64,000 bases of DNA, taken from contig NZ_JAJSBI010000002.1 of assembly GCF_021261325.1 (NCBI RefSeq), positions 248,001 to 312,000 on the forward strand, in the 5' to 3' direction. The position numbers and the translations under genes are program-made. This stretch comes from Streptomyces guryensis (lineage in GTDB: Bacteria > Actinomycetota > Actinomycetes > Streptomycetales > Streptomycetaceae). The notes under the pieces are model-generated. The model saw only the letters and a list, made by a program, of their open reading frames with translations. It did not search any database and was not told where the DNA came from. Positions 6,244 to 47,771 of this stretch are shown piece after piece. The first letter of the stretch is position 1. Each line of letters opens with the position of its first letter.

Positions 6244-6651
6244 ATGTCGTACGACGTCGAAAAGCCGGACGAGCAGTGGCGTGCGGAGCTGACCCCGGCC
6301 GAGTACGCCGTGCTGCGCCAGGCCGCGACCGAGCCCGCCTTCACGGGTGAGTACACCGGCACCAAGACGACGGGCGTGTACTCGTGCCGCGCCTGCGGCG
6401 CCGAACTGTTCACCTCCACCACGAAGTTCGAGTCGCACTGCGGCTGGCCGTCCTTCTACGACCCGAAGGACACCGACGCGGTCGAGCTGATCGAGGACCG
6501 CACGCACGGCATGGTGCGGACCGAGGTGCGGTGCGCGCGGTGCGGATCGCACCTCGGGCACGTGTTCGAGGGTGAGGGGTATCCGACGCCCACGGACCAG
6601 CGGTACTGCATCAACTCGATCTCCCTTCGCCTGACCCCTGACGAGGGCTGA
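6244..6651 (+). CDS. msrB: peptide-methionine (R)-S-oxide reductase MsrB
   Basis: This 135-residue enzyme reduces methionine-R-sulfoxide in proteins using thioredoxin. Two CxxC zinc pairs (CRAC near residue 45, CARC near residue 97) and the catalytic Cys in RYCINSIS near the C-terminus are present. An AAGGGG ribosome-binding site precedes the ATG. Expression is probably coupled to murC, whose stop is 13 bases upstream. Confidence 0.95.
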   Translation: MSYDVEKPDEQWRAELTPAEYAVLRQAATEPAFTGEYTGTKTTGVYSCRACGAELFTSTTKFESHCGWPSFYDPKDTDAVELIEDRTHGMVRTEVRCARCGSHLGHVFEGEGYPTPTDQRYCINSISLRLTPDEG

Positions 6652-6656
6652 CCGTC

Positions 6657-7196
6657 CTAGTCCGCGGTCTTGGTGTACGTGTAGGGGGCGGCGACCGCGC
6701 CACTGTGGTGATCGGCCGCGCGCAGGGCGGCCGTGAGGCGTTCGCGTGGTTTCATGCCGAGGCCGGCGGTGGCGTGGAGGGCGCCGAGGGCGTACTCGTC
6801 GCCGCAGCCGACCGCGGCGTACCCGTCGGCCGACTCGCTGACCTGGTAGTCGCCGTGGATGGCGAAGAGCCGGCCCTGGACGCCCACGAGGAAGCTGCCG
6901 GCCTGTTCCTGCTCGGAGTCCTTGCGCGCCCAGCCACCGTCCTTGAGGCAGGTGCGGACCGCGTTGACGAAGGTCGTGGCCATGAAGCGGTAGAGGGCAC
7001 CTTCCGGGTGCGGGGCCTCAAGTGCGTAGTGCAGCAACTGCCCCATGCGGAAGGACGTGGTGTACCCGAGGACGTAGGGCCCGTTGGTGAACACCTTCGG
7101 GTCGCGGCAGATGGTGAGCCGATATCCGTCACTGCCTGCGGAGTCTGCGGCCAGATGTACTCGCTTGCGATTGACCAGGCCGACGATGACCGTCAA
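6657..7196 (-). CDS. Ntn-hydrolase-like (proteasome-beta-like) hypothetical protein
   Basis: The opening LTVIVGLVNRKRVHLAADSAG resembles the first strand-turn-strand of proteasome-beta/HslV-type N-terminal nucleophile folds, and CGDEYALGALHAT matches the later conserved portion. The predicted length is 179 residues from the TTG at 7196, which has a GGGGG tract about 9 bases upstream. The frame stays open further upstream, but that extension is Arg/Pro-rich and unlike coding sequence. The nucleophile Thr would be residue 2 after Met. No partner regulator is adjacent. The function is unknown. It is convergent with msrB, 5 bases apart. Confidence 0.65.
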   Translation of the reverse strand: MTVIVGLVNRKRVHLAADSAGSDGYRLTICRDPKVFTNGPYVLGYTTSFRMGQLLHYALEAPHPEGALYRFMATTFVNAVRTCLKDGGWARKDSEQEQAGSFLVGVQGRLFAIHGDYQVSESADGYAAVGCGDEYALGALHATAGLGMKPRERLTAALRAADHHSGAVAAPYTYTKTAD

Positions 7197-7296
7197 GTCA
7201 GCACCCCCGTCACGGTGTTGAGGCGTCGCTGTCCGCCTTCGGGGAGTTCTGCCCGCCCGCGGCGCGGAGTCACCGCTTCCGTTCAGCGGTACCGCG

Positions 7297-8592
7297 TCAA
7301 CGGCTCTGTGGTGCGTCCGACTCCGCACGACGGCTTTGCGGGAGCACGGGGTTCGGCTGCCCCTGTGTCCTGCGGCCGTGGCGTCTGCTGCGGGGCGGGC
7401 GCTGGGGCCAGCAGAGGACGTAGGCGGCGGAACCGGCCGCGAAGGCCAGGCGGATGAGGCCCTGGACGGAGTCCGAGGGGACGAGCAGGGCGCTGCCGTA
7501 CAGGGAGATGAGGGCGAGCCAGCTGACCCAGGGGACCAGACGGCGCTGGCCGATCGAGTCCCAGATCAGGGTGCCGAGGAGGACCGAGGCGTTGTAGTAC
7601 GTGTACACGCTCGGGTCCAGGACGATACGGGCGTCGGCGGCGAGCAGCACGACCGCCGGCCAGCGGTGCCGGCGGACCGCCAGGGCGCCCAGGGCGATAC
7701 CGAGGGCCATCTGGGCCGGCCGGTCCCACCAGGGGGTGGCGGCGTCGTGCACACCGAACCAGCGCAGGGCCGAGGCGGCCTGGTTCGGGATCGTGAAGCG
7801 GGCGGCGGCCAGGGTGTCCAGATGCGTGAGGTAGAAGGGCAGCCAGGCGACGGCCACCAGGCCGACCGTCCAGCCGGCGGAGCGCAGCCGGGCGGGGCGT
7901 GGCAGGGCCAGCAGCAGGGGCAGGAAGCCGACCGCCCAGGGTTTGGAGTCCACCGCCAGGGCCAGGAAGACGCCCACGGCCGTCGCGTTGCCGCGCACCA
8001 GCGCCCGTACGGCGAGGGTGGTGAAGAACAGGGCCAGGACGTCGTCCAGGTGCGCGAAACGCACCGAGACCTCCACCCACATCGGGATGAAGGCCGCCCC
8101 GGCGATCAGCACGCGCTGCTGGAGGCGTTTGTGGTTGAGTCCCGTGCCCCGGTAGTGGTCGGCGGCGGCACGGCCGACCAGCACCAGCATGTACAGACCC
8201 AGGCCGGACATGAACGCGTCGGCGAGTTTCTCGCCGAGCTCGGCGGAGAAGGGGGCGAACAGCCCCGCGACCAGGAAGCTGACCGGGCCGATCTGCAGGT
8301 CGGGGTGGTTGGCGTAGAGGGCGAGGCCGCCACCGGGGATCTGCTGGAAGAGCAACTGCTGGCCCTGTACGAGATAGTGCCAGGACACGGCTCCGTGGCG
8401 TTCGGCCACGAAGAACCAGGCGACCGTCCACAGGGCCAGCAGTGCGTTGTGCCAGCGCACCGGGTAGCGGCCGATGCGGCCGACCCGCGCCCCGTCCCCG
8501 GGCACGGCTGCCACCGTCCTCCGCTTCCGCAACTTCCGTCCTCCCCCTCTGCCCGCGCCCGGCGTCGGGGCAGCCGAGGTCGCGGGTACCAC
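7297..8592 (-). CDS. polytopic GT-C-like membrane protein
   Basis: This 431-residue integral membrane protein has roughly nine or ten hydrophobic segments after a basic, glycine-rich N-terminus. The periplasmic-loop-like early region, a helix-rich core (SVRFAHLDDVLALFFTTLA) and a YTYYNASVL segment resemble GT-C glycosyltransferase-like membrane proteins (GT87/DUF2029 group). These use polyprenyl-phosphate sugar donors, but no catalytic residue can be assigned with confidence. Start is GTG 8592. The basic C-terminal tail is probably cytoplasmic. Confidence 0.75.
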   Translation of the reverse strand: MVPATSAAPTPGAGRGGGRKLRKRRTVAAVPGDGARVGRIGRYPVRWHNALLALWTVAWFFVAERHGAVSWHYLVQGQQLLFQQIPGGGLALYANHPDLQIGPVSFLVAGLFAPFSAELGEKLADAFMSGLGLYMLVLVGRAAADHYRGTGLNHKRLQQRVLIAGAAFIPMWVEVSVRFAHLDDVLALFFTTLAVRALVRGNATAVGVFLALAVDSKPWAVGFLPLLLALPRPARLRSAGWTVGLVAVAWLPFYLTHLDTLAAARFTIPNQAASALRWFGVHDAATPWWDRPAQMALGIALGALAVRRHRWPAVVLLAADARIVLDPSVYTYYNASVLLGTLIWDSIGQRRLVPWVSWLALISLYGSALLVPSDSVQGLIRLAFAAGSAAYVLCWPQRPPRSRRHGRRTQGQPNPVLPQSRRAESDAPQSR

Positions 8593-34951: not shown

Positions 34952-36190
34952 ATGAGACGGACTCCCTTCTCGCCCTCCTTCTGGCGCAGCCCCTTGCGCG
35001 GCCCCTGGTTCACCTCGGTCCTCGGCGTCGTCCTGCTCGGCGGCATCACCGTGCTGTTCGTGACGGGACTGCTGTCGTACGCCGCCTACAACCCGGACCT
35101 GTCGCCGGTGAACGACCAGACCCCGGACAAGGGGATCCTCGGCTTCTACCTCTTCTCCTGGCCGACCGATCCGCACTGGCTGTACCGCCTGACGCAGGGC
35201 GTCCACGTCACCCTCGGGATCACCCTGATCCCCGTGCTGCTGGCCAAGCTGTGGTCGGTGGTGCCGAAGCTGTTCACGCTGCCGCCCGCCCGCTCCCTCG
35301 CGCACGCGCTGGAGCGGATCTCGTTGCTGCTGCTGGTCGGCGGCGGCCTGTTCGAGTTCGCCACCGGCGTGCTGAACGTCCAGCTCGACTACGTCTTCCC
35401 CGGCTCCTTCTACCCGCTGCACTTCTACGGCGCGTGGGTGTTCTTCGCCGCGTTCGTCGCGCACGCGGTGCTGAAGACCCCGGCGGCCCTGCGCAACCTG
35501 CGCGGTCTGCGTCAGCCGCCCCAAGTGGCGGAGGAAGAGCGCGAGTTGGTGGCACCCGACCCCGATCCGCCCACCGTCTCCCGGCGGGGTGCCCTCGGAC
35601 TGGTCGGGGGCGGCTCGCTGCTGCTGTTCGGCACGACGGTCGGGCAGGACTTCGACGGGCTGCGGTGGTCCGCCGTTCTCGCCCCGCACGGGGGCGCCGA
35701 TCCGGGCAGCGGGCCGGGCGGGTTCCAGATCAACAAGACCGCCGCGTACGCCGGCGTCGGTGCGGCGGAGCGGAGCGAGGAGGCGTGGCGGCTGACCGTC
35801 AGCGGACGGTCCGGCACCGTCCGGCTCAGCCGCGCCGACCTGCTCCGACTGCCCCTGCACAGCTCGGCGTTGCCCATCGCCTGCGTCGAGGGCTGGTCGA
35901 CCTCCGACCAGTGGTGGCGTGGCGTGCGGCTCCGGGACCTCGCGGCCCTCGTCGGGTACGACGGCGATACGCCGGACGTCTTCGTGGAGTCGCTGCAACG
36001 GCACGGCGCGTTCCGGCGGGCCGCCCTGCGCGCCAACCAGGTCGCCGACCCGCGTTCCCTGCTCGCCCTGTTCGTCAACGGCGAGGAGCTGACCCCCGAC
36101 CACGGCCATCCGGCACGGGTCATCGTGCCCGCGGCGCCCGGTGTGCTCAACACCAAGTGGGTGGCCCGGATGACCTTCGGAGACCTGTGA
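34952..36190 (+). CDS. membrane-anchored SUOX-fold molybdopterin oxidoreductase
   Basis: This 412-residue protein has three to four N-terminal membrane helices resembling a cytochrome b561-type anchor. After SRRGALGLVGGGSLLL, a Tat-like transition, comes a sulfite-oxidase-fold domain. The Moco-ligating Cys is in PIACVEGWSTSDQWW, and NHGFPAR-type spacing appears as PDHGHPARVIVP. The catalytic domain is likely on the outer face. The substrate is unknown; MsrP-like sulfoxide or sulfite chemistry is possible. ATG 34952 has a nearby GGAG. It is coupled to the next gene by TGATG. Confidence 0.9.
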   Translation: MRRTPFSPSFWRSPLRGPWFTSVLGVVLLGGITVLFVTGLLSYAAYNPDLSPVNDQTPDKGILGFYLFSWPTDPHWLYRLTQGVHVTLGITLIPVLLAKLWSVVPKLFTLPPARSLAHALERISLLLLVGGGLFEFATGVLNVQLDYVFPGSFYPLHFYGAWVFFAAFVAHAVLKTPAALRNLRGLRQPPQVAEEERELVAPDPDPPTVSRRGALGLVGGGSLLLFGTTVGQDFDGLRWSAVLAPHGGADPGSGPGGFQINKTAAYAGVGAAERSEEAWRLTVSGRSGTVRLSRADLLRLPLHSSALPIACVEGWSTSDQWWRGVRLRDLAALVGYDGDTPDVFVESLQRHGAFRRAALRANQVADPRSLLALFVNGEELTPDHGHPARVIVPAAPGVLNTKWVARMTFGDL

Positions 36191-39010: not shown

Positions 39011-39748
39011 ATGGAGCAGCAGCAGTACGCACAGGGCGGTGCCCGGGTGCTCGTCGTCGACGACGATCCGACCGTCGCCGAGGTCGTCACCGGGTATCTC
39101 GACCGCGCCGGATATGTCGTGGACCGGGCCGGCGACGGCCCCGACGCGCTCGCCCGCGCCGCCGCCCACTGGCCCGACCTCGTCGTCCTCGACCTGATGC
39201 TGCCCGGCATGGACGGCCTGGAGGTGTGCCGACGGATGCGGGGGCGCGGACCGGTGCCGGTCATCATGCTCACCGCGCGGGGCGACGAGGACGACCGCAT
39301 CCTGGGCCTGGAGGTGGGTGCCGACGACTACGTCACCAAGCCGTTCAGCCCCCGCGAGCTCGTCCTGCGCGTCGAGTCCGTGCTGCGCCGCACCCGCCCC
39401 GCCCAGCCCTCGGGCCTGCTCCGGGCGGCCGGGCTCTCCGTCGACCCGGCGTCCCGCCGCGCCGTCAAGAACGGCGCCGAACTCGCCCTCACCATCCGCG
39501 AGTTCGACCTCCTCGCCTTCTTCCTGCGGCACCCGGGCCGCGTCTACAGCCGCGAGGACCTGATGCGCGAGGTGTGGGGCTGGGACTTCGGCGACCTGTC
39601 GACCGTCACCGTCCATGTGCGGCGGCTGCGCGGCAAGGTCGAGGACGACCCGGGCAGGCCCCGGCTGATCCAGACGGTGTGGGGCGTCGGCTACCGCTTC
39701 GACGGCTCCGAAGACGGCTCCGACGGCGTCTCCCGAGCGGAGGCGTGA
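39011..39748 (+). CDS. OmpR-family response regulator
   Basis: This 245-residue two-domain protein has a receiver with the acidic pair at VVDDDP, phospho-Asp in VVLDLMLPGMDG (near 61) and Lys in VTKPFSP. A winged-helix DNA-binding domain ends in TVWGVGYRFDG. It is paired with the histidine kinase that begins 3 bases downstream. The operon is divergent from the GT2 gene, suggesting it may regulate that operon. Confidence 0.93.
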   Translation: MEQQQYAQGGARVLVVDDDPTVAEVVTGYLDRAGYVVDRAGDGPDALARAAAHWPDLVVLDLMLPGMDGLEVCRRMRGRGPVPVIMLTARGDEDDRILGLEVGADDYVTKPFSPRELVLRVESVLRRTRPAQPSGLLRAAGLSVDPASRRAVKNGAELALTIREFDLLAFFLRHPGRVYSREDLMREVWGWDFGDLSTVTVHVRRLRGKVEDDPGRPRLIQTVWGVGYRFDGSEDGSDGVSRAEA

Positions 39749-39750
39749 CC

Positions 39751-40863
39751 ATGCACGCCAACCTCCTCATCGCCCTCTTCGCCTTCCTCGGCGCCGCCGC
39801 GGCCGGACTGCTCGGCGCCTGTGTGCTGCTGCTGATCCGGCGCCGCTCGCTCGCCCTGCACCTCGGTGTGGTCGCCGCCGTCGCCGTCACCGCGATGCTC
39901 GCGGGCACCCTCGCGGTCGCGCAGGCCATGTTCCTGTCCGGGCACGACCTGAAGGTCGTCACGACCGTCGTGGCGATGGCCGCCGTGGTCTCCCTGGCCA
40001 CCGCCCTGCTGCTGGGCCGCTGGGTCGCCGCCCGCAGCCGCGCCCTCACCCTCGCCGCCCGCTCCTTCGGCGACGGCGGCGACTTCACCTCACCGGTCGG
40101 CCCCGCCACCGCCGAACTCGCCGCCCTCAGCCGCGAGTTGGAGGCCACCGGCGCCAAACTCGCCGAGTCCCGGGAACGCGAACGCGCCCTGGAGTCCTCC
40201 CGCCGCGAACTCGTCGCCTGGATCTCCCACGACCTGCGTACCCCCCTCGCCGGCCTGCGCGCCATGTCCGAGGCCCTGGAGGACGGCGTCGCCGCCGACC
40301 CCGGCCGCTACCTCAGACAGATCCGCACCGAGGTCGAGCGCCTCAACGACATGGTCGGAGACCTCTTCGAACTCTCCCGCATCCACGCGGGCTCACTGGC
40401 GCTCAGCCCCAGCCGGATCTCCCTCTACGACCTCGTCGGCGACGCGCTCGCGGGCGCCGACCCCCTGGCCCGCGAGTACGGCGTACGGCTGGTCGGCGAC
40501 CGGGTCGAACCCCTGCCGGTCGAGGTGGACGGCAAGGAGATGAGCAGGGTGCTGGGCAATCTGCTGGTCAACGCCATCCGGCGGACGCCGGCCGACGGCA
40601 CGGTCGCGATCGCCGCGGAGCGTTCGCCGGACGGTGTGGTCGTGTCCGTGACGGACGCCTGCGGCGGCATCCCGGAGGAGGACCTGCCCCGCGTCTTCGA
40701 CACCGGGTGGCGGGGCACGCATGCCCGGACTCCCCCTGCGGGCGCGGGACTCGGCCTCGCCATCGTGCGGGGCATCGTGGAGGCGCACCAGGGGCGGGCG
40801 AGCGTCCGCAACATCCCGGGCGGCTGCCGGTTCGAGGTGACCCTGCCGGTCGCGGAGGCGTGA
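39751..40863 (+). CDS. sensor histidine kinase
   Basis: This 370-residue kinase has an N-terminal hydrophobic hairpin and further membrane segments up to residue about 90 with little extracytoplasmic sequence, a HAMP-like linker, the H-box WISHDLRTPLAGL near 155, an N-box NLLVNAIRRTP near 270 and G-boxes DACGGIP and GAGLGLAIV. The lack of a sensor domain suggests intramembrane sensing. ATG 39751 has a GGAGG site; a GTG at 39745 overlapping the regulator stop is an alternative. It ends 4 bases from the convergent small secreted gene. Confidence 0.92.
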   Translation: MHANLLIALFAFLGAAAAGLLGACVLLLIRRRSLALHLGVVAAVAVTAMLAGTLAVAQAMFLSGHDLKVVTTVVAMAAVVSLATALLLGRWVAARSRALTLAARSFGDGGDFTSPVGPATAELAALSRELEATGAKLAESRERERALESSRRELVAWISHDLRTPLAGLRAMSEALEDGVAADPGRYLRQIRTEVERLNDMVGDLFELSRIHAGSLALSPSRISLYDLVGDALAGADPLAREYGVRLVGDRVEPLPVEVDGKEMSRVLGNLLVNAIRRTPADGTVAIAAERSPDGVVVSVTDACGGIPEEDLPRVFDTGWRGTHARTPPAGAGLGLAIVRGIVEAHQGRASVRNIPGGCRFEVTLPVAEA

Positions 40864-42649: not shown

Positions 42650-44119
42650 CTACAGCCGACCTGGTCCCGACGACAGGGCCCGGGAGCCCACCGGCAGCGA
42701 CACCGTGAACACCGCCGACCCCGGTTCACTGCGCAGCTCGATCGTGCCGCCGTGGGCGCGGACCAGGGAACCGGCGACCGGGAGCCCGAGCCCGCTGCCG
42801 CCCCGGTCCCGGCTGCGGGCCTTGTCGACGCGGTAGAAGCGGTCGAAGACCCGCTCCTGGTCGGCGGCCGGAATACCGGGGCCGGCGTCCGCGACCCGTA
42901 CGACGGCCTGGTCCCCCGCCACCTCGACCGCCATCGACACCGGCGTACCGGCCGGCGTGTGCACGGCCGCGTTGGTGAGCAGGTTGTCCAGGACCTGGCG
43001 GATGCGGTGCGGGTCCAGACGGAGCTTCAGTGAGGGCGGGCCGGACGTCACCTCCAGGGGGCGCTGCGGATGGCTCGCCCGGAAGGCGGCGGCGGCCTCG
43101 TCCACCAGCTCCACCAGGTCCGTGTCCTGCATCCGCAGGGGCGCGTCCACCTCCGCCGCGTCGAGGCGGGCGAGCAGCAGCAGGTCGTCCAGCAGGACGC
43201 CCATCCGGGCCGCCTCGGCGCGCAGCCGGGCCAGATGCTTGTCCCGTTCCTCGGGGGCGTTGGCGGCGGCGTACTGGAAGAGGTCCGCGTAGCCCCGTAC
43301 GGACATCAGGGGGGTGCGCAGCTCGTGCGAGGCGTCCGCGACGAAACGGCGCAGGCGCTGTTCCGCCTCCGCGCGGACCGCGAGTGAGTCGTCGATGTGC
43401 TCCAGCATGGTGTTGAAGGCGGTGCGCAGCTCCTCCACCTCCGGGCCGCCGCCCCGCTTGTCGGCGCGCAGCGGCAGCCGGGCCGCCGACTCGGTCAGGT
43501 CGTGCGAGGCGATGCCGTGGGCCGTGTGGGCCATGTCGCTCAGCGGGTTCAGGCCCCGCTTCAGCATCCGCCGGCCGAACACCACCAACGCCAGCAGCGC
43601 GAGCCCGAAGGCGATGACCTGGACCGTGATCAGCCGCCGTACCGTGTCGTCGATGTCGCCCATCGGTGCGCCGCTGATCAGGATCACACCGGGCTTGACC
43701 TCGCAGGCGCGCAGCCGGTAGGCGCCGTCGCCCGTGAGGTCCGCGGTGCGCACGAGCTCGCTGTCCGTGCCGGCCTGTGCCAAGGCCAGGGAGGCGAACG
43801 GGGCGACGTCCTGGGGGAGGTCGCCGGCCTCCTCAGGCTTGCGGAGCACGGCTCTGCCGCCCGACACGTCGTACACGGCGTAGTACCAGCCCCAGTACTT
43901 CTTGCCCTGGAGAGTGCCGGTCTCCGCGACGTTCTTGGACTGGGCGACCTGGGCGAGGCCCAGCTGGTCGTCGAGCTGGTGCGACAGGTAGTCCCGCATA
44001 TAGGTCGTCAGAGCCGTGCCGACGACGGCGAACACCACCAGTGCCAGCGCGCCGAGTCCCAGCGCCAGCCGGGTGCCCAGCCGCAGTCCGCGGTAGCCCC
44101 GCGGAATCCGCCCGATCAC
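42650..44119 (-). CDS. sensor histidine kinase
   Basis: This 489-residue kinase has two membrane helices (about residues 18-40 and 165-190) flanking an extracytoplasmic sensor of about 120 residues, HAMP, H-box DASHELRTPLMSV near 265, N-box DNLLTNAAVHTP, and G-boxes DAGPGIP and GGSGLGLPV. The GTG start overlaps the regulator stop (GTGA). Together they form the likely controller of the divergent flavin electron-transfer operon. The 255 bases between it and the epimerase gene hold only GC-rich inverted stretches. Confidence 0.93.
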   Translation of the reverse strand: MIGRIPRGYRGLRLGTRLALGLGALALVVFAVVGTALTTYMRDYLSHQLDDQLGLAQVAQSKNVAETGTLQGKKYWGWYYAVYDVSGGRAVLRKPEEAGDLPQDVAPFASLALAQAGTDSELVRTADLTGDGAYRLRACEVKPGVILISGAPMGDIDDTVRRLITVQVIAFGLALLALVVFGRRMLKRGLNPLSDMAHTAHGIASHDLTESAARLPLRADKRGGGPEVEELRTAFNTMLEHIDDSLAVRAEAEQRLRRFVADASHELRTPLMSVRGYADLFQYAAANAPEERDKHLARLRAEAARMGVLLDDLLLLARLDAAEVDAPLRMQDTDLVELVDEAAAAFRASHPQRPLEVTSGPPSLKLRLDPHRIRQVLDNLLTNAAVHTPAGTPVSMAVEVAGDQAVVRVADAGPGIPAADQERVFDRFYRVDKARSRDRGGSGLGLPVAGSLVRAHGGTIELRSEPGSAVFTVSLPVGSRALSSGPGRL

Positions 44120-44805
44120 TCGGCGGCCTGCCGGATGACGTAGCCGAAGCCCCGTACCGTCTGGATCAGCGGTTCGCCCGTGTCGTCGAGCTTGCGGCGC
44201 AGGCGGCTGACGACCAGCTCGACGACGTTCGAGCGGCCCCCGAAGCCGTACTCCCACACATGGTCGAGGATCTGCGCCTTGGTCATCACGGTCGGCGACT
44301 TGCGCATCAGGAAGCGCAGGACCTCGTACTCGGTGGGGGTGAGGGTGAGCAGCCGGTCGGCGCGGCGCACCTCGCGGGTGTCCTCGTCCATCGTCAGGTC
44401 CGCGACCCGCAGCACCGAGCGCTGGAAGGCCGGCCCGGCGCTGCGCCGCAGCACGGTGCGCAGCCGGGCCATCAGCTCCTCCACCGCGAACGGCTTGACC
44501 AGGTAGTCGTCGCCGCCCCGGGTCAGCCCCGCCACCCGGTCGGCGATGCCGTCCCGGGCGGTCAGGAACACCACGGGCACCATCGTGCCGTTGTGCCGCA
44601 GCCGGTCGAGCACGCCGAAGCCGTCCAGGTCCGGCAGCATCAGGTCGAGCACCACGATGTCCGGATCGAACTCGCCGGCCAGCCGCAGCGCCTCCTCACC
44701 GGAGTTCGCGGTGACCGCGTCCCAGCCCTCGTAACGGGCCACGGTCGCGACGAGGTCGGCGATGGGCGGGTCGTCGTCCACGACCAGGAGGCGTACTTTT
44801 TCCAC
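44116..44805 (-). CDS. OmpR-family response regulator
   Basis: This 229-residue protein has a receiver (VVDDDPP, phospho-Asp in VVLDLMLPDLDG, Lys in VKPFAV) and a winged-helix output domain ending QTVRGFGYVIRQ. The start is GTG 44805. Direct repeats with 11-base spacing in the divergent promoter region (44888-44906) fit the tandem binding mode of this family, suggesting control of the flavocytochrome operon and possibly itself. Confidence 0.93.
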   Translation of the reverse strand: MEKVRLLVVDDDPPIADLVATVARYEGWDAVTANSGEEALRLAGEFDPDIVVLDLMLPDLDGFGVLDRLRHNGTMVPVVFLTARDGIADRVAGLTRGGDDYLVKPFAVEELMARLRTVLRRSAGPAFQRSVLRVADLTMDEDTREVRRADRLLTLTPTEYEVLRFLMRKSPTVMTKAQILDHVWEYGFGGRSNVVELVVSRLRRKLDDTGEPLIQTVRGFGYVIRQAAE

Positions 44806-44887
44806 CCGCTCATACTGCGGTACGTGGCTGGTGAGGCCATATCCCCGGGGTCACAACGAGCACATCGATAAGTACTTGAAAGTTGTC

Positions 44888-44906
44888 CGACAGCTTTTCG
44901 ACAGCT
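44888..44906 (+). promoter_or_regulatory. 11-bp-spaced direct repeats (response-regulator box)
   Basis: CGACAGCT occurs at 44888-44895 and again at 44899-44906, exactly one helical turn apart. It lies in the 153-base divergent region between the regulator and the flavocytochrome gene. Confidence 0.55.
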
Positions 44907-44958: not shown

Positions 44959-46296
44959 GTGACGACCGTCCAATCACCCCCTGCGCCCCCCACGGCGATA
45001 CGCCCCAGGGTGGTGGCTCGCACGGGCCTGTACGCCGTGCTCGCCGCGAACGCCGCCGTGGTCGCCTACTTCTTCGCCCAGGCGGGCTTCGCCTCCAACG
45101 CCCTGATCGTCATCGGCCGCCTCTTCGGCCTCTACGGCGCCCTCGTCATGGCCTTCCAGCTGGTGCTGGTGGCCCGGCTGCCCTGGCTCGACCGCCGTAT
45201 CGGCATGGACCGGCTGACCTCCTGGCACCGCTGGACCGGCTTCGCCCTGCTGTGGACGCTCCTCGCACACGCCGTCTTCATCACCTTCGGCTACGCCCAA
45301 GGCGCGGGTGTCGGTCCGATCTCCGAGATCGTGGACCTCGCCCAGACGACCGAGGGCGTGCTCCGCGCGATCGTCGCCCTCGGCATCATCCTCGTGGTCG
45401 GCGCCGTCTCGGCCCGCTACGCCCGCCGCCGCCTCGCCTACGAGACCTGGCACTTCATCCACCTCTACACGTATGCCGCCGTGGTGCTCGCGTTCACGCA
45501 CCAGGTCGCGGTCGGTACGACGTTCACCGCGTCGTCCGCCGCCAAGGCGTACTGGTACGGGGTGTGGGGCGTGGCCCTCGGCGCACTGGTCCTGGGCCGC
45601 CTGCTCCTCCCGCTGTGGCGGAACCGGCGCCACCAGCTGCGGGTCTCCGCGGTCGTCCACGAGTCCGACAACGTCGTCTCGATCCACATGACGGGGCGCG
45701 ACCTGGACCGGATGCCCGCGCAGGCCGGCCAGTTCTTCATGTGGCGGTTCCTGACCCGCGACCGCTGGTGGCAGGCGAACCCCTTCTCCCTGTCGGCCGC
45801 CCCCGACGGCCGCACCCTGCGCCTCACCGCCAAGGCGGCGGGCGACGGCAGCGCCGCCCTGCGGCACGTGAAGGTCGGCACCCGCGTCTTCGCCGAGGGC
45901 CCCTACGGAGCCTTCACCACCATGCACCGGGTGAGGTCCGAGTCCCTGCTCATCGCGGGCGGCGTCGGCGTCACCCCGATCCGGGCCATCCTGGAGGAGA
46001 TCGAGGGCCACGCGGTCGTCCTCTACCGGGTCTCCTCGGACCGGGACGCCGTCCTCTACGACGAGTTGCGCGAACTCGCCGTCGCCAAGGGCCACGAGCT
46101 GCACCTGGTCACCGGCTCGCCCGTCCCGGACAAGCTGGCGCCCGGCGAGCTGGCGCGGCTGGTGCCGGACATCGCCGACCGGGACGTCTTCCTGTGCGGC
46201 CCGCCGCCGATGATGAACGCGGTGCTGCGCAGCCTGGGCGAACTGAACGTGCCCAGGCAGCAGATCCACTTCGAACGCTTCAGCCTGGCCGGATGA
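44959..46296 (+). CDS. ferric-reductase-like transmembrane flavocytochrome
   Basis: This 445-residue membrane oxidoreductase has six hydrophobic segments carrying His residues placed for two b haems (LTSWHRWTGF, LLAHAVFI, TWHFIHLYTY, FTHQVAV). A cytoplasmic FAD domain (NPFSLSAAPD) and an NAD(P) domain (LLIAGGVGVTPIRA, VFLCGPPPMMNAV) follow. It would carry electrons from NAD(P)H across the membrane. GTG 44959. The FMN-binding protein starts 19 bases downstream, a natural electron acceptor on the outer face. Confidence 0.92.
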   Translation: MTTVQSPPAPPTAIRPRVVARTGLYAVLAANAAVVAYFFAQAGFASNALIVIGRLFGLYGALVMAFQLVLVARLPWLDRRIGMDRLTSWHRWTGFALLWTLLAHAVFITFGYAQGAGVGPISEIVDLAQTTEGVLRAIVALGIILVVGAVSARYARRRLAYETWHFIHLYTYAAVVLAFTHQVAVGTTFTASSAAKAYWYGVWGVALGALVLGRLLLPLWRNRRHQLRVSAVVHESDNVVSIHMTGRDLDRMPAQAGQFFMWRFLTRDRWWQANPFSLSAAPDGRTLRLTAKAAGDGSAALRHVKVGTRVFAEGPYGAFTTMHRVRSESLLIAGGVGVTPIRAILEEIEGHAVVLYRVSSDRDAVLYDELRELAVAKGHELHLVTGSPVPDKLAPGELARLVPDIADRDVFLCGPPPMMNAVLRSLGELNVPRQQIHFERFSLAG

Positions 46297-46315
46297 GGAA
46301 GACGGGAAAGACATC

Positions 46316-47026
46316 GTGAAGCGAGCCATACCTGTCGTCGTCCTGAGCATCGCGGGCCTGGTCCCCGTCTGGCGCTACGAGCCGTCGACCCCCGTAGCCT
46401 CCCCCTCCGTCTCCGCGTCCGCGGGTTCCTCCTCCGGCACCGGAGTCAAGGGCCCGACGGTCCAGACGGAGAAGGGCCCCGTCCAGGTCCAGGTCACCTT
46501 CGACGGCGACAAGATCACCGCTGTACGGATGCTCCAGCAGCCGAACCATCCGCAGACCACGGCGGCGGTGCCGAAGCTGGTCGCGGAGACGCTGAAGGTG
46601 CAGAGCGCGGACATCGACACGGTGTCCGGCGCGACGATCACCAGCAACGCCTACAAGAAGTCCCTCCAGGCCGCGATCGACGCGGACAGGGCGAACCCGA
46701 AGTCGTCCAAGTCCGCTTCGGACTCCTCGGACTCTTCGGAGTCCTCCTCGTCCTCCGACGAATCGGGGGGCACCGTCTCGGGTCCGACGGTGAACACCGT
46801 CAAGGGCCCCGTGCAGGTCCAGGTGACCTTCGGCGAGGACGACGAGATCACCGCCGTGCGGATGCTGCAGCAGCCGGACCATCCGCAGACGACGGCCGCG
46901 GTGCCGAAGCTGATCGCGGCGACGTTGAAGGCGCAGAGCGCGGACATCGACACGGTGTCGGGTGCGACGATCACCAGCGGGGCCTACCGGAAGTCGCTCC
47001 AGGCCGCGCTCGACGCGGAGGAGTGA
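46316..47026 (+). CDS. membrane-anchored protein with two FMN-binding domains
   Basis: This 236-residue protein has an N-terminal signal-anchor (MKRAIPVVVLSIAGLVPVW) and two near-identical FMN-binding domains of about 75 residues joined by a Ser/Asp-rich linker. Each ends in DTVSGATITS, the ApbE flavinylation motif in which Thr carries covalent FMN. The two halves are also similar at DNA level, showing recent duplication. ApbE follows after 4 bases. I infer an extracytoplasmic two-flavin electron carrier reduced by the upstream flavocytochrome. Confidence 0.9.
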   Translation: MKRAIPVVVLSIAGLVPVWRYEPSTPVASPSVSASAGSSSGTGVKGPTVQTEKGPVQVQVTFDGDKITAVRMLQQPNHPQTTAAVPKLVAETLKVQSADIDTVSGATITSNAYKKSLQAAIDADRANPKSSKSASDSSDSSESSSSSDESGGTVSGPTVNTVKGPVQVQVTFGEDDEITAVRMLQQPDHPQTTAAVPKLIAATLKAQSADIDTVSGATITSGAYRKSLQAALDAEE

Positions 47027-47030
47027 TCCG

Positions 47031-47771
47031 ATGCACCGCGTCGAACACGTCATGGGCTTCCCCGTCTCGCTCCGGGTCGACGACGAGGACCTTCCCGAGT
47101 CGGCCGCCGACGCGGTCTTCGCGTGGCTGCGCGAGGTCGACGACCGGTTCAGCCCGTTCAAGCCCGACAGCGAGGTGTCCCGCCACGGCCGGGGCGAGCT
47201 GGACTCCCACGAGCTCAGCGACGACCTCGCCGAGGTCCTCGACCTGTGCGAGCACTACCGGATCGCCACGGGCGGAGCCTTCGACGTACGGCTGCCCGGC
47301 CGCGCCCTCGACCCCTGTGCGGTGGTCAAGGGCTGGTCGGTGCAGCGGGCGGCGGAGCTGCTGATGGCGGCCGGGGCGAAGAGTTTCGTGCTGAACGCCG
47401 GCGGTGACGTGGTCGCCGCCGGCGGCCCCTGGCGGGTCGGCGTGCGGCACCCCGAACACGCCGACAAGCTGTGCACCGTCCTCGCGCTCACCGACGGGGC
47501 GGTCGCGACGTCCGCGCGCTACGAACGCGGCGACCACATCATCGACGGCCGTACGGGCCTCCCCGCCACCGGGCTGCTCAGTCTGACCGTCGTGGCCGCC
47601 ACCCTGACCGAGGCGGACTCGGTAGCGACGGCGGCGTTCGCGATGGGCGCGCGGGGCATCGAGTGGGCCGCCTCACTGCCGGGCTGCGAGGTGTTCGCCG
47701 TGGACGCCGGGGGGCAGGTGCTGCGGACGGAGGGGTTTCCGGTCGCGAGGGAGCCCTCGGCGGCCGCGTGA
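47031..47771 (+). CDS. apbE: FAD:protein FMN transferase ApbE
   Basis: This 246-residue enzyme attaches FMN from FAD to Thr in the SGAT motif. Family landmarks include AVVKGWSVQRAAELL, VLNAGGDVVAAGG, ATSARYERGDHIIDGRTG and EADSVATAAFAMGARG. It is shorter than the usual 300-350 residues and has no signal peptide or lipobox, implying cytoplasmic action, so its substrate might be flavinylated before export. It is third in the operon with the flavocytochrome and FMN protein. Confidence 0.92.
   Translation: MHRVEHVMGFPVSLRVDDEDLPESAADAVFAWLREVDDRFSPFKPDSEVSRHGRGELDSHELSDDLAEVLDLCEHYRIATGGAFDVRLPGRALDPCAVVKGWSVQRAAELLMAAGAKSFVLNAGGDVVAAGGPWRVGVRHPEHADKLCTVLALTDGAVATSARYERGDHIIDGRTGLPATGLLSLTVVAATLTEADSVATAAFAMGARGIEWAASLPGCEVFAVDAGGQVLRTEGFPVAREPSAAA

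Follow-up and report, generated by a model that had tools for sequence, protein, structure and literature searches.

The window, a stretch of 64,000 nucleotides from Streptomyces guryensis, contains a flavocytochrome gene followed on the same strand by genes for an FMN-binding protein (fmn) and a flavin transferase (apbE), with a response regulator and a histidine kinase encoded divergently upstream (Table 1). The gaps within the three-gene module are 19 bases (flavocytochrome to fmn) and 4 bases (fmn to apbE), and the three genes therefore very likely form one operon. The Pfam domains of all three products scored over cut-off, consistent with the transmembrane electron-transfer module predicted in an earlier note on this DNA, and the module at 44959-47771 is real, conserved and probably functional. 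The end of apbE given in that note, 47771, was retained; the start was set anew at ATG 47031, the likely start, which lies just past the fmn stop codon and gives 246 aa. The earlier note left out the divergent two-component system (42650-44805, minus strand), which, with its shared putative operator and with the pattern of ApbE export signals across relatives, goes beyond that description. For the histidine kinase, the start at 44119 was adopted, a longer in-frame start being present at 44257.

Table 1. Features of the flavinylation module and its divergent regulatory genes (window coordinates)
Feature	Coordinates	Strand	Description
Flavocytochrome	44959..46296	+	445 aa; ferric-reductase/NOX-like; PF01794, PF08022, PF00175
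FMN protein	46316..47026	+	236 aa; two FMN_bind domains, N-terminal anchor, two DTVSGAT motifs
ApbE flavin transferase	47031..47771	+	246 aa; short, without export signal; PF02424
OmpR/PhoB-type response regulator, divergent	44116..44805	-	PF00072 and PF00486
Membrane sensor histidine kinase	42650..44119	-	HATPase_c and HisKA over cut-off
Putative operator	44877..44904	+	TGAAAG-N5-CGACAG-N5-CGACAG; three repeats, 11-bp period; from intergenic alignment

Some flavocytochrome match was found in 118 of 121 Streptomyces genomes (own genome included), many of the matches being paralogues, and the 30 best flavocytochrome loci (75-100% identical, own included) were taken for study. At these loci the FMN gene was downstream in 30/30 and the regulator upstream in 29/30 (exception, L068), while ApbE was full length in 27, truncated to 75 aa in L069, and undetected at L070 and L076; L070 is at a contig end. 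ApbE was within 3.5 kb in 75 of 80 named loci; for four of the remaining five (L248, L291, L304 and L320) the available stretch stops too soon, and the fifth, L254, has lost fmn and most of apbE. The 30-locus and 80-locus sets overlap in some contigs, and their counts are not independent. The same three genes were also together in 37/40 class-level loci, which had been chosen for ApbE/FMN_bind co-location from a larger list. The three genes were together, with ApbE full length, in 27/30 best loci, and the co-location of flavocytochrome, FMN protein and ApbE in these and in the class-level loci suggests a joint function. Decay of the module is suggested at L069 and L254 by the shortened ApbE and the lost genes, respectively. 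At L282 an IS605-type OrfB gene (6371-7588, minus strand; PF01385, PF07282) was observed between the flavocytochrome and FMN genes, and an insert of comparable length occupies the same place in L270 (about 6350-7850). At L257 the FMN gene (6349-7569) is apparently frameshifted, its frame continuing into that of apbE; a sequencing error is possible.

The regulator gene was divergent from the flavocytochrome gene and 148-217 bp upstream of it in 78/80 named Streptomyces loci, and the histidine kinase was found in 77/80. The intergenic region between regulator and flavocytochrome contains TTGAAAG-N5-CGACAG-N5-CGACAG, with the two CGACAG copies in direct orientation at a spacing of 11 bp. Sites of OmpR/PhoB-type regulators usually consist of head-to-tail repeats with such a period, and the CGACAG repeats look like an operator of this type. 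Where the regulator was present (78 named loci), the CGACAG pair, with T allowed for its first C, was found in 77 and the full site, slightly relaxed, in 65, counts that are descriptive, the search expression having been drawn from the same alignments. The exception to the pair is L326; it and L053, where one base is changed, are apparently a single contig. The named loci lacking the regulator were L298, which has no site, and L316, which keeps the pair in another setting; L068, likewise lacking the regulator, keeps only one repeat, and at L052 the site is further upstream. When the genome was searched at up to 3 mismatches, the full pattern with TTGAAAG gave one match, this site, at 0 mismatches, and the reversed-pattern control gave 5. 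A looser two-repeat pattern gave 3 matches in the window (up to 3 mismatches) versus 1.08 expected, and since 10/100 shuffles reached 3, only the exact match carries weight. A wider regulon of the response regulator was considered and set aside: the full pattern was not found elsewhere in the genome, where weaker or partial sites are possible. Matches of the module's regulator and kinase to NCBIfam metal-responsive regulators and kinases were below the cut-offs. A second two-component system is encoded near the module (window about 39040-40860, plus strand), its regulator 43% and its kinase 35% identical to those of the module; among the 29 other loci, 6 showed similar pairs.

The FMN protein matched PF04205 in two stretches (95.8 bits), with 86% identity between its two FMN domains. 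DTVSGAT is present in both, in agreement with the two SGAT flavinylation motifs that the earlier note had placed on a membrane-anchored protein. In the window protein, KR is followed by a hydrophobic segment near the N-terminus, as judged by hydropathy, a rough stand-in for a signal-peptide call. Across 83 FMN-protein frames, a hydrophobic segment (at least 1.4) preceded the first FMN domain in 80 and no anchor was found in 3; orientation by charge was N-in/C-out in 76, a tie in 4 and opposite in 0, and the FMN proteins look anchored N-in/C-out. Tat was considered as a possible export route of the FMN protein: RR precedes the hydrophobic segment in many FMN-protein relatives and in the proteins of the genome's own contig C21, KR in the family of the window protein, and neither in some families. 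The best PDB match, 8p2a (E 1.4e-14), is taken to be the second domain of SaFMN3, a three-FMN protein of Streptomyces azureus. At the 30 best loci, protein length indicated two FMN domains in 13 and one in 17, and of the 74 scored among 81 tree rows 38 have two and 36 one; one domain and two have interchanged at least 18 times on a quickly built flavocytochrome tree. The near-equal counts and these switches ruled out the doubled domain as a distinguishing feature. For 37 two-domain proteins, the domains within one protein were on average 89% identical versus 83-85% between species, and the doubling is therefore recent or homogenised. The parallel with PplA that the earlier note had drawn from the doubling carries little weight, given that orthologues alternate between one FMN domain and two and that 8p2a is the nearest solved relative.

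A published class accommodates the module. Flavinylation-associated clusters that include a PF01794 gene were defined as MsrQ-like systems; 1797 such clusters were described, broadly conserved in Actinobacteria, 1437 of them with an NAD-binding domain (Meheust et al. 2021, PMC8238504). The module has PF01794 (62.9 bits) beside FMN_bind and ApbE; the further condition, a signal peptide or lipidation site on at least one of the FMN_bind/ApbE genes, was judged only roughly. As described in the cited part of that paper, MsrQ-like systems share with it a PF01794 plus PF00175 protein adjoining FMN_bind and ApbE, occurrence in Actinobacteria, and NAD(P)H as proposed donor. The module adds a conserved two-component system with a putative operator and an unexported ApbE, neither of which is discussed in the cited part of PMC8238504. 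SaFMN3, a protein of FMN_bind repeats, bore three covalently attached FMN after coexpression with an ApbE in E. coli (PMC10339131). From the description in the same source, it resembles the module in having tandem FMN_bind repeats after a predicted N-terminal anchor and an adjoining putative flavin transferase gene, and differs in having three repeats versus two in the window protein. As the MsrQ-like class is published and flavinylation of SaFMN3 has been shown, the module's kind and chemistry are known: it is a further example of that class, and the idea of an uncharacterised kind of pathway, raised in the earlier note, is not borne out by the published definition (PMC8238504). Two features of the module deserve attention: the conserved two-component system together with its site, and the transferase's lack of an export signal. 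Contig C21 carries a second flavinylation cluster (L043, 5263-10506) with two flavocytochromes, one- and two-domain FMN proteins and a short ApbE, and this cluster may be nearer to SaFMN3 than the window module is. The FMN proteins of contig C21 have RR before the anchor, and the number of FMN domains reaches three in some related clusters of other Streptomyces.

ApbE matched PF02424 at 156.3 bits in two pieces, profile positions 75-123 being skipped. The structure model had a pLDDT of 93.5, and its fold matches were solved flavin transferases, the best being FmnB (7esb, TM 0.85 by query length). In an alignment of 37 sequences, D196 and T200 were invariant and H169 was conserved in at least 90%, and H169 aligned with the HxxD histidine of 1vrm; we take the conserved residues at the metal site to be the metal-binding residues. 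PF02424, the FmnB fold match and the conserved residues together give an ApbE fold with a conserved flavin/metal site. Because the model is confident, the fold FmnB-like, and the HxxD histidine and the D/T pair conserved, the window ApbE is probably active as a flavin transferase. Four simple motif patterns were all present in 31/67 ApbEs and at least one was missing in the remaining 36, a count that weighs against the assignment, which rests on alignment and fold instead.

As the earlier note had claimed, no export signal was seen on this ApbE: the transferase domain begins about 8 residues past the start codon, and hydropathy at the N-terminus stays low, reaching at most 0.59. Export was scored by a crude rule, namely a best 12-residue hydropathy window of at least 2.1 within the 60 residues that precede the domain, or else a lipobox. 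By this rule an export segment was found in 0/75 named ApbE orthologues (highest hydropathy 1.02), in 0/5 of the ApbE genes that the own genome carries (highest 1.89, scored on frames extended upstream of the start codon; the profile match of one of the five, on contig C56, is incomplete), and in 0/29 full-length ApbEs fetched from class Actinomycetes. Short-type ApbEs were evaluable in 64/67 cases (L214-L216 were left out, the domain start not having been found; 4/64 are from other classes), and none reached 2.1 (highest 1.63; hydropathy only, no lipobox check). The 30 best-scoring ApbEs of the phylum sample, all from other classes, looked exported in 26/30 cases and not in 4/30, and twelve further full-length ApbEs, eleven of them lower-scoring ones from other classes, were all below 2.1 (highest 1.87). 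An unexported ApbE is therefore not confined to Actinomycetes, since full-length proteins of other classes (11/11 lower-scoring, 4/30 best) and four short ones qualify. Among 148 class genomes, FMN_bind was found in 64 and ApbE in 93, and all 64 were among the 93 when the two lists were compared by eye.

The window ApbE thus seems to stay inside the cell, and cytosolic flavinylation followed by export would be the simplest reading that fits an unexported ApbE and outward-anchored FMN proteins. The FMN domain would then have to be translocated already flavinylated, an unusual task for Sec, and the window FMN protein carries KR, not twin arginine. Alternatively, ApbE may leave by a non-classical route or be carried by a partner and flavinylate outside, as in Listeria. 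Most bacterial ApbEs are described as secreted, with secreted targets (PMC12052999), which favors this alternative, and the SaFMN3 paper places flavin transferases outside, membrane-bound (PMC10339131). Against it, no class ApbE examined has an export segment, and no flavin transporter was named among 13 of the window's proteins, which include one ABC ATPase of unassigned substrate, while Listeria needs flavin export (PMC9973259). Listeria has in FmnB, the best fold match of the window ApbE, and PplA a comparable pair of transferase and flavinylated surface protein; FmnB acts outside and depends on that export (PMC9973259). We regard flavinylation outside as unlikely here. The Listeria-type EET cluster includes Ndh2, EetA/EetB and FmnA; the Pfam scan of the same 13 proteins, a part of those encoded in the window, named none of these.

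Cytosolic ApbEs are known: that of Klebsiella is needed for flavinylation of a soluble fumarate reductase (PMC12052999), and any novelty therefore lies only in the pairing with outward-anchored substrates. We put forward, as a tentative proposal that falls a little short of even likelihood, the combined claim that throughout Actinomycetes, and probably some sister classes, a cytosolic ApbE would use cytosolic FAD to load the FMN domain before export, the covalently flavinylated domain then crossing the membrane with no FAD exporter needed, in the reverse of the Listeria order, and that the two-component system of the Streptomyces module would govern mainly its own operon. If the pattern holds, a large group of soil bacteria matures outer flavoproteins before export, and the order of flavinylation and translocation, together with the export route, becomes directly testable. 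The supplement of Meheust et al. 2021 holds per-gene signal-peptide predictions and may already show the pattern (PMC8238504). No title on cytosolic ApbE as an actinomycete rule, nor on this Streptomyces operon, was found among the open-access literature matches listed.

The flavocytochrome scored 62.9 bits for PF01794, 25.6 for PF08022 and 33.6 for PF00175, all over cut-off, giving a predicted architecture of a haem-type membrane domain followed by a C-terminal FAD/NAD(P)H reductase domain. H90, H104, H168 and H181 were invariant in an alignment of 34 sequences, as was H165. In sequence comparison, the nearest solved relatives, aligned across most of the protein, were 8qt6 and its variants, which we take to be bacterial NOX; the 8qt6 histidines align with H90, H104, H168 and H181 and presumably hold two haems in 8qt6. 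The window protein shares with bacterial NOX (8qt6 and relatives) the membrane domain, the FAD/NAD(P)H domain and the four aligned histidines, and differs in having FMN_bind and ApbE as operon partners. The two-haem core with an FAD/NAD(P)H domain that marks NOX was matched at the level of sequence, haem binding being predicted. The structure model was of low confidence (pLDDT 57.9), with six long helices visible, and was left out of the fold search. MsrQ-like proteins were modelled with conserved haem histidines in a 2024 study (PMC11334425).

We consider it probable that the locus encodes an MsrQ-like flavinylation module in which electrons pass from NAD(P)H through a haem membrane protein to FMN outside, with a cytosolic ApbE and two-component control. 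NAD(P)H would reduce the FAD of the cytosolic reductase domain, and two b haems, held by the four histidines, would carry electrons across the membrane to the FMN groups attached covalently at the SGAT threonines of the anchored protein outside the membrane, from which they would reach a final acceptor, whether Fe(III), quinone or other. Attachment of the FMN by ApbE would most likely draw on cytosolic FAD and take place inside the cell, ahead of domain export, and the divergent two-component system would regulate the operon through the direct-repeat site. Each electron-transfer step, flavinylation, its compartment and the regulation are inferred from the domains, conserved motifs, gene order, absent export segments and conserved site, all of them read from the DNA. 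No experiment on this operon was found among the open-access literature matches listed. The conserved two-component system and putative operator offer a way to the inducing signal, perhaps to the acceptor.

That the flavocytochrome acts by itself, reducing O2 or Fe(III) directly as bacterial NOX does and leaving the FMN protein as a side acceptor, appears improbable: its kinship to 8qt6 and variants, and a paralogue in the own genome, 56% identical and located on contig C45, where profile searches gave no FMN_bind or ApbE match, would be expected of such an enzyme, but the three genes occur together in most of the best loci (27/30, with ApbE full length) and of the class-level loci (37/40). 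That the FMN domains remain unflavinylated and ApbE modifies another, cytosolic target, as the Klebsiella enzyme does with soluble fumarate reductase (PMC12052999), is very improbable given DTVSGAT in both FMN domains, an apbE start 4 bases after the fmn stop, and the flavinylation of the homologous SaFMN3 domains (PMC10339131).

About 9 kb from the module, the window also encodes a protein (34952-36187, plus strand) that combines several hydrophobic stretches with an Oxidored_molyb domain (PF00174, E 5e-24); an RR motif separates the two parts.
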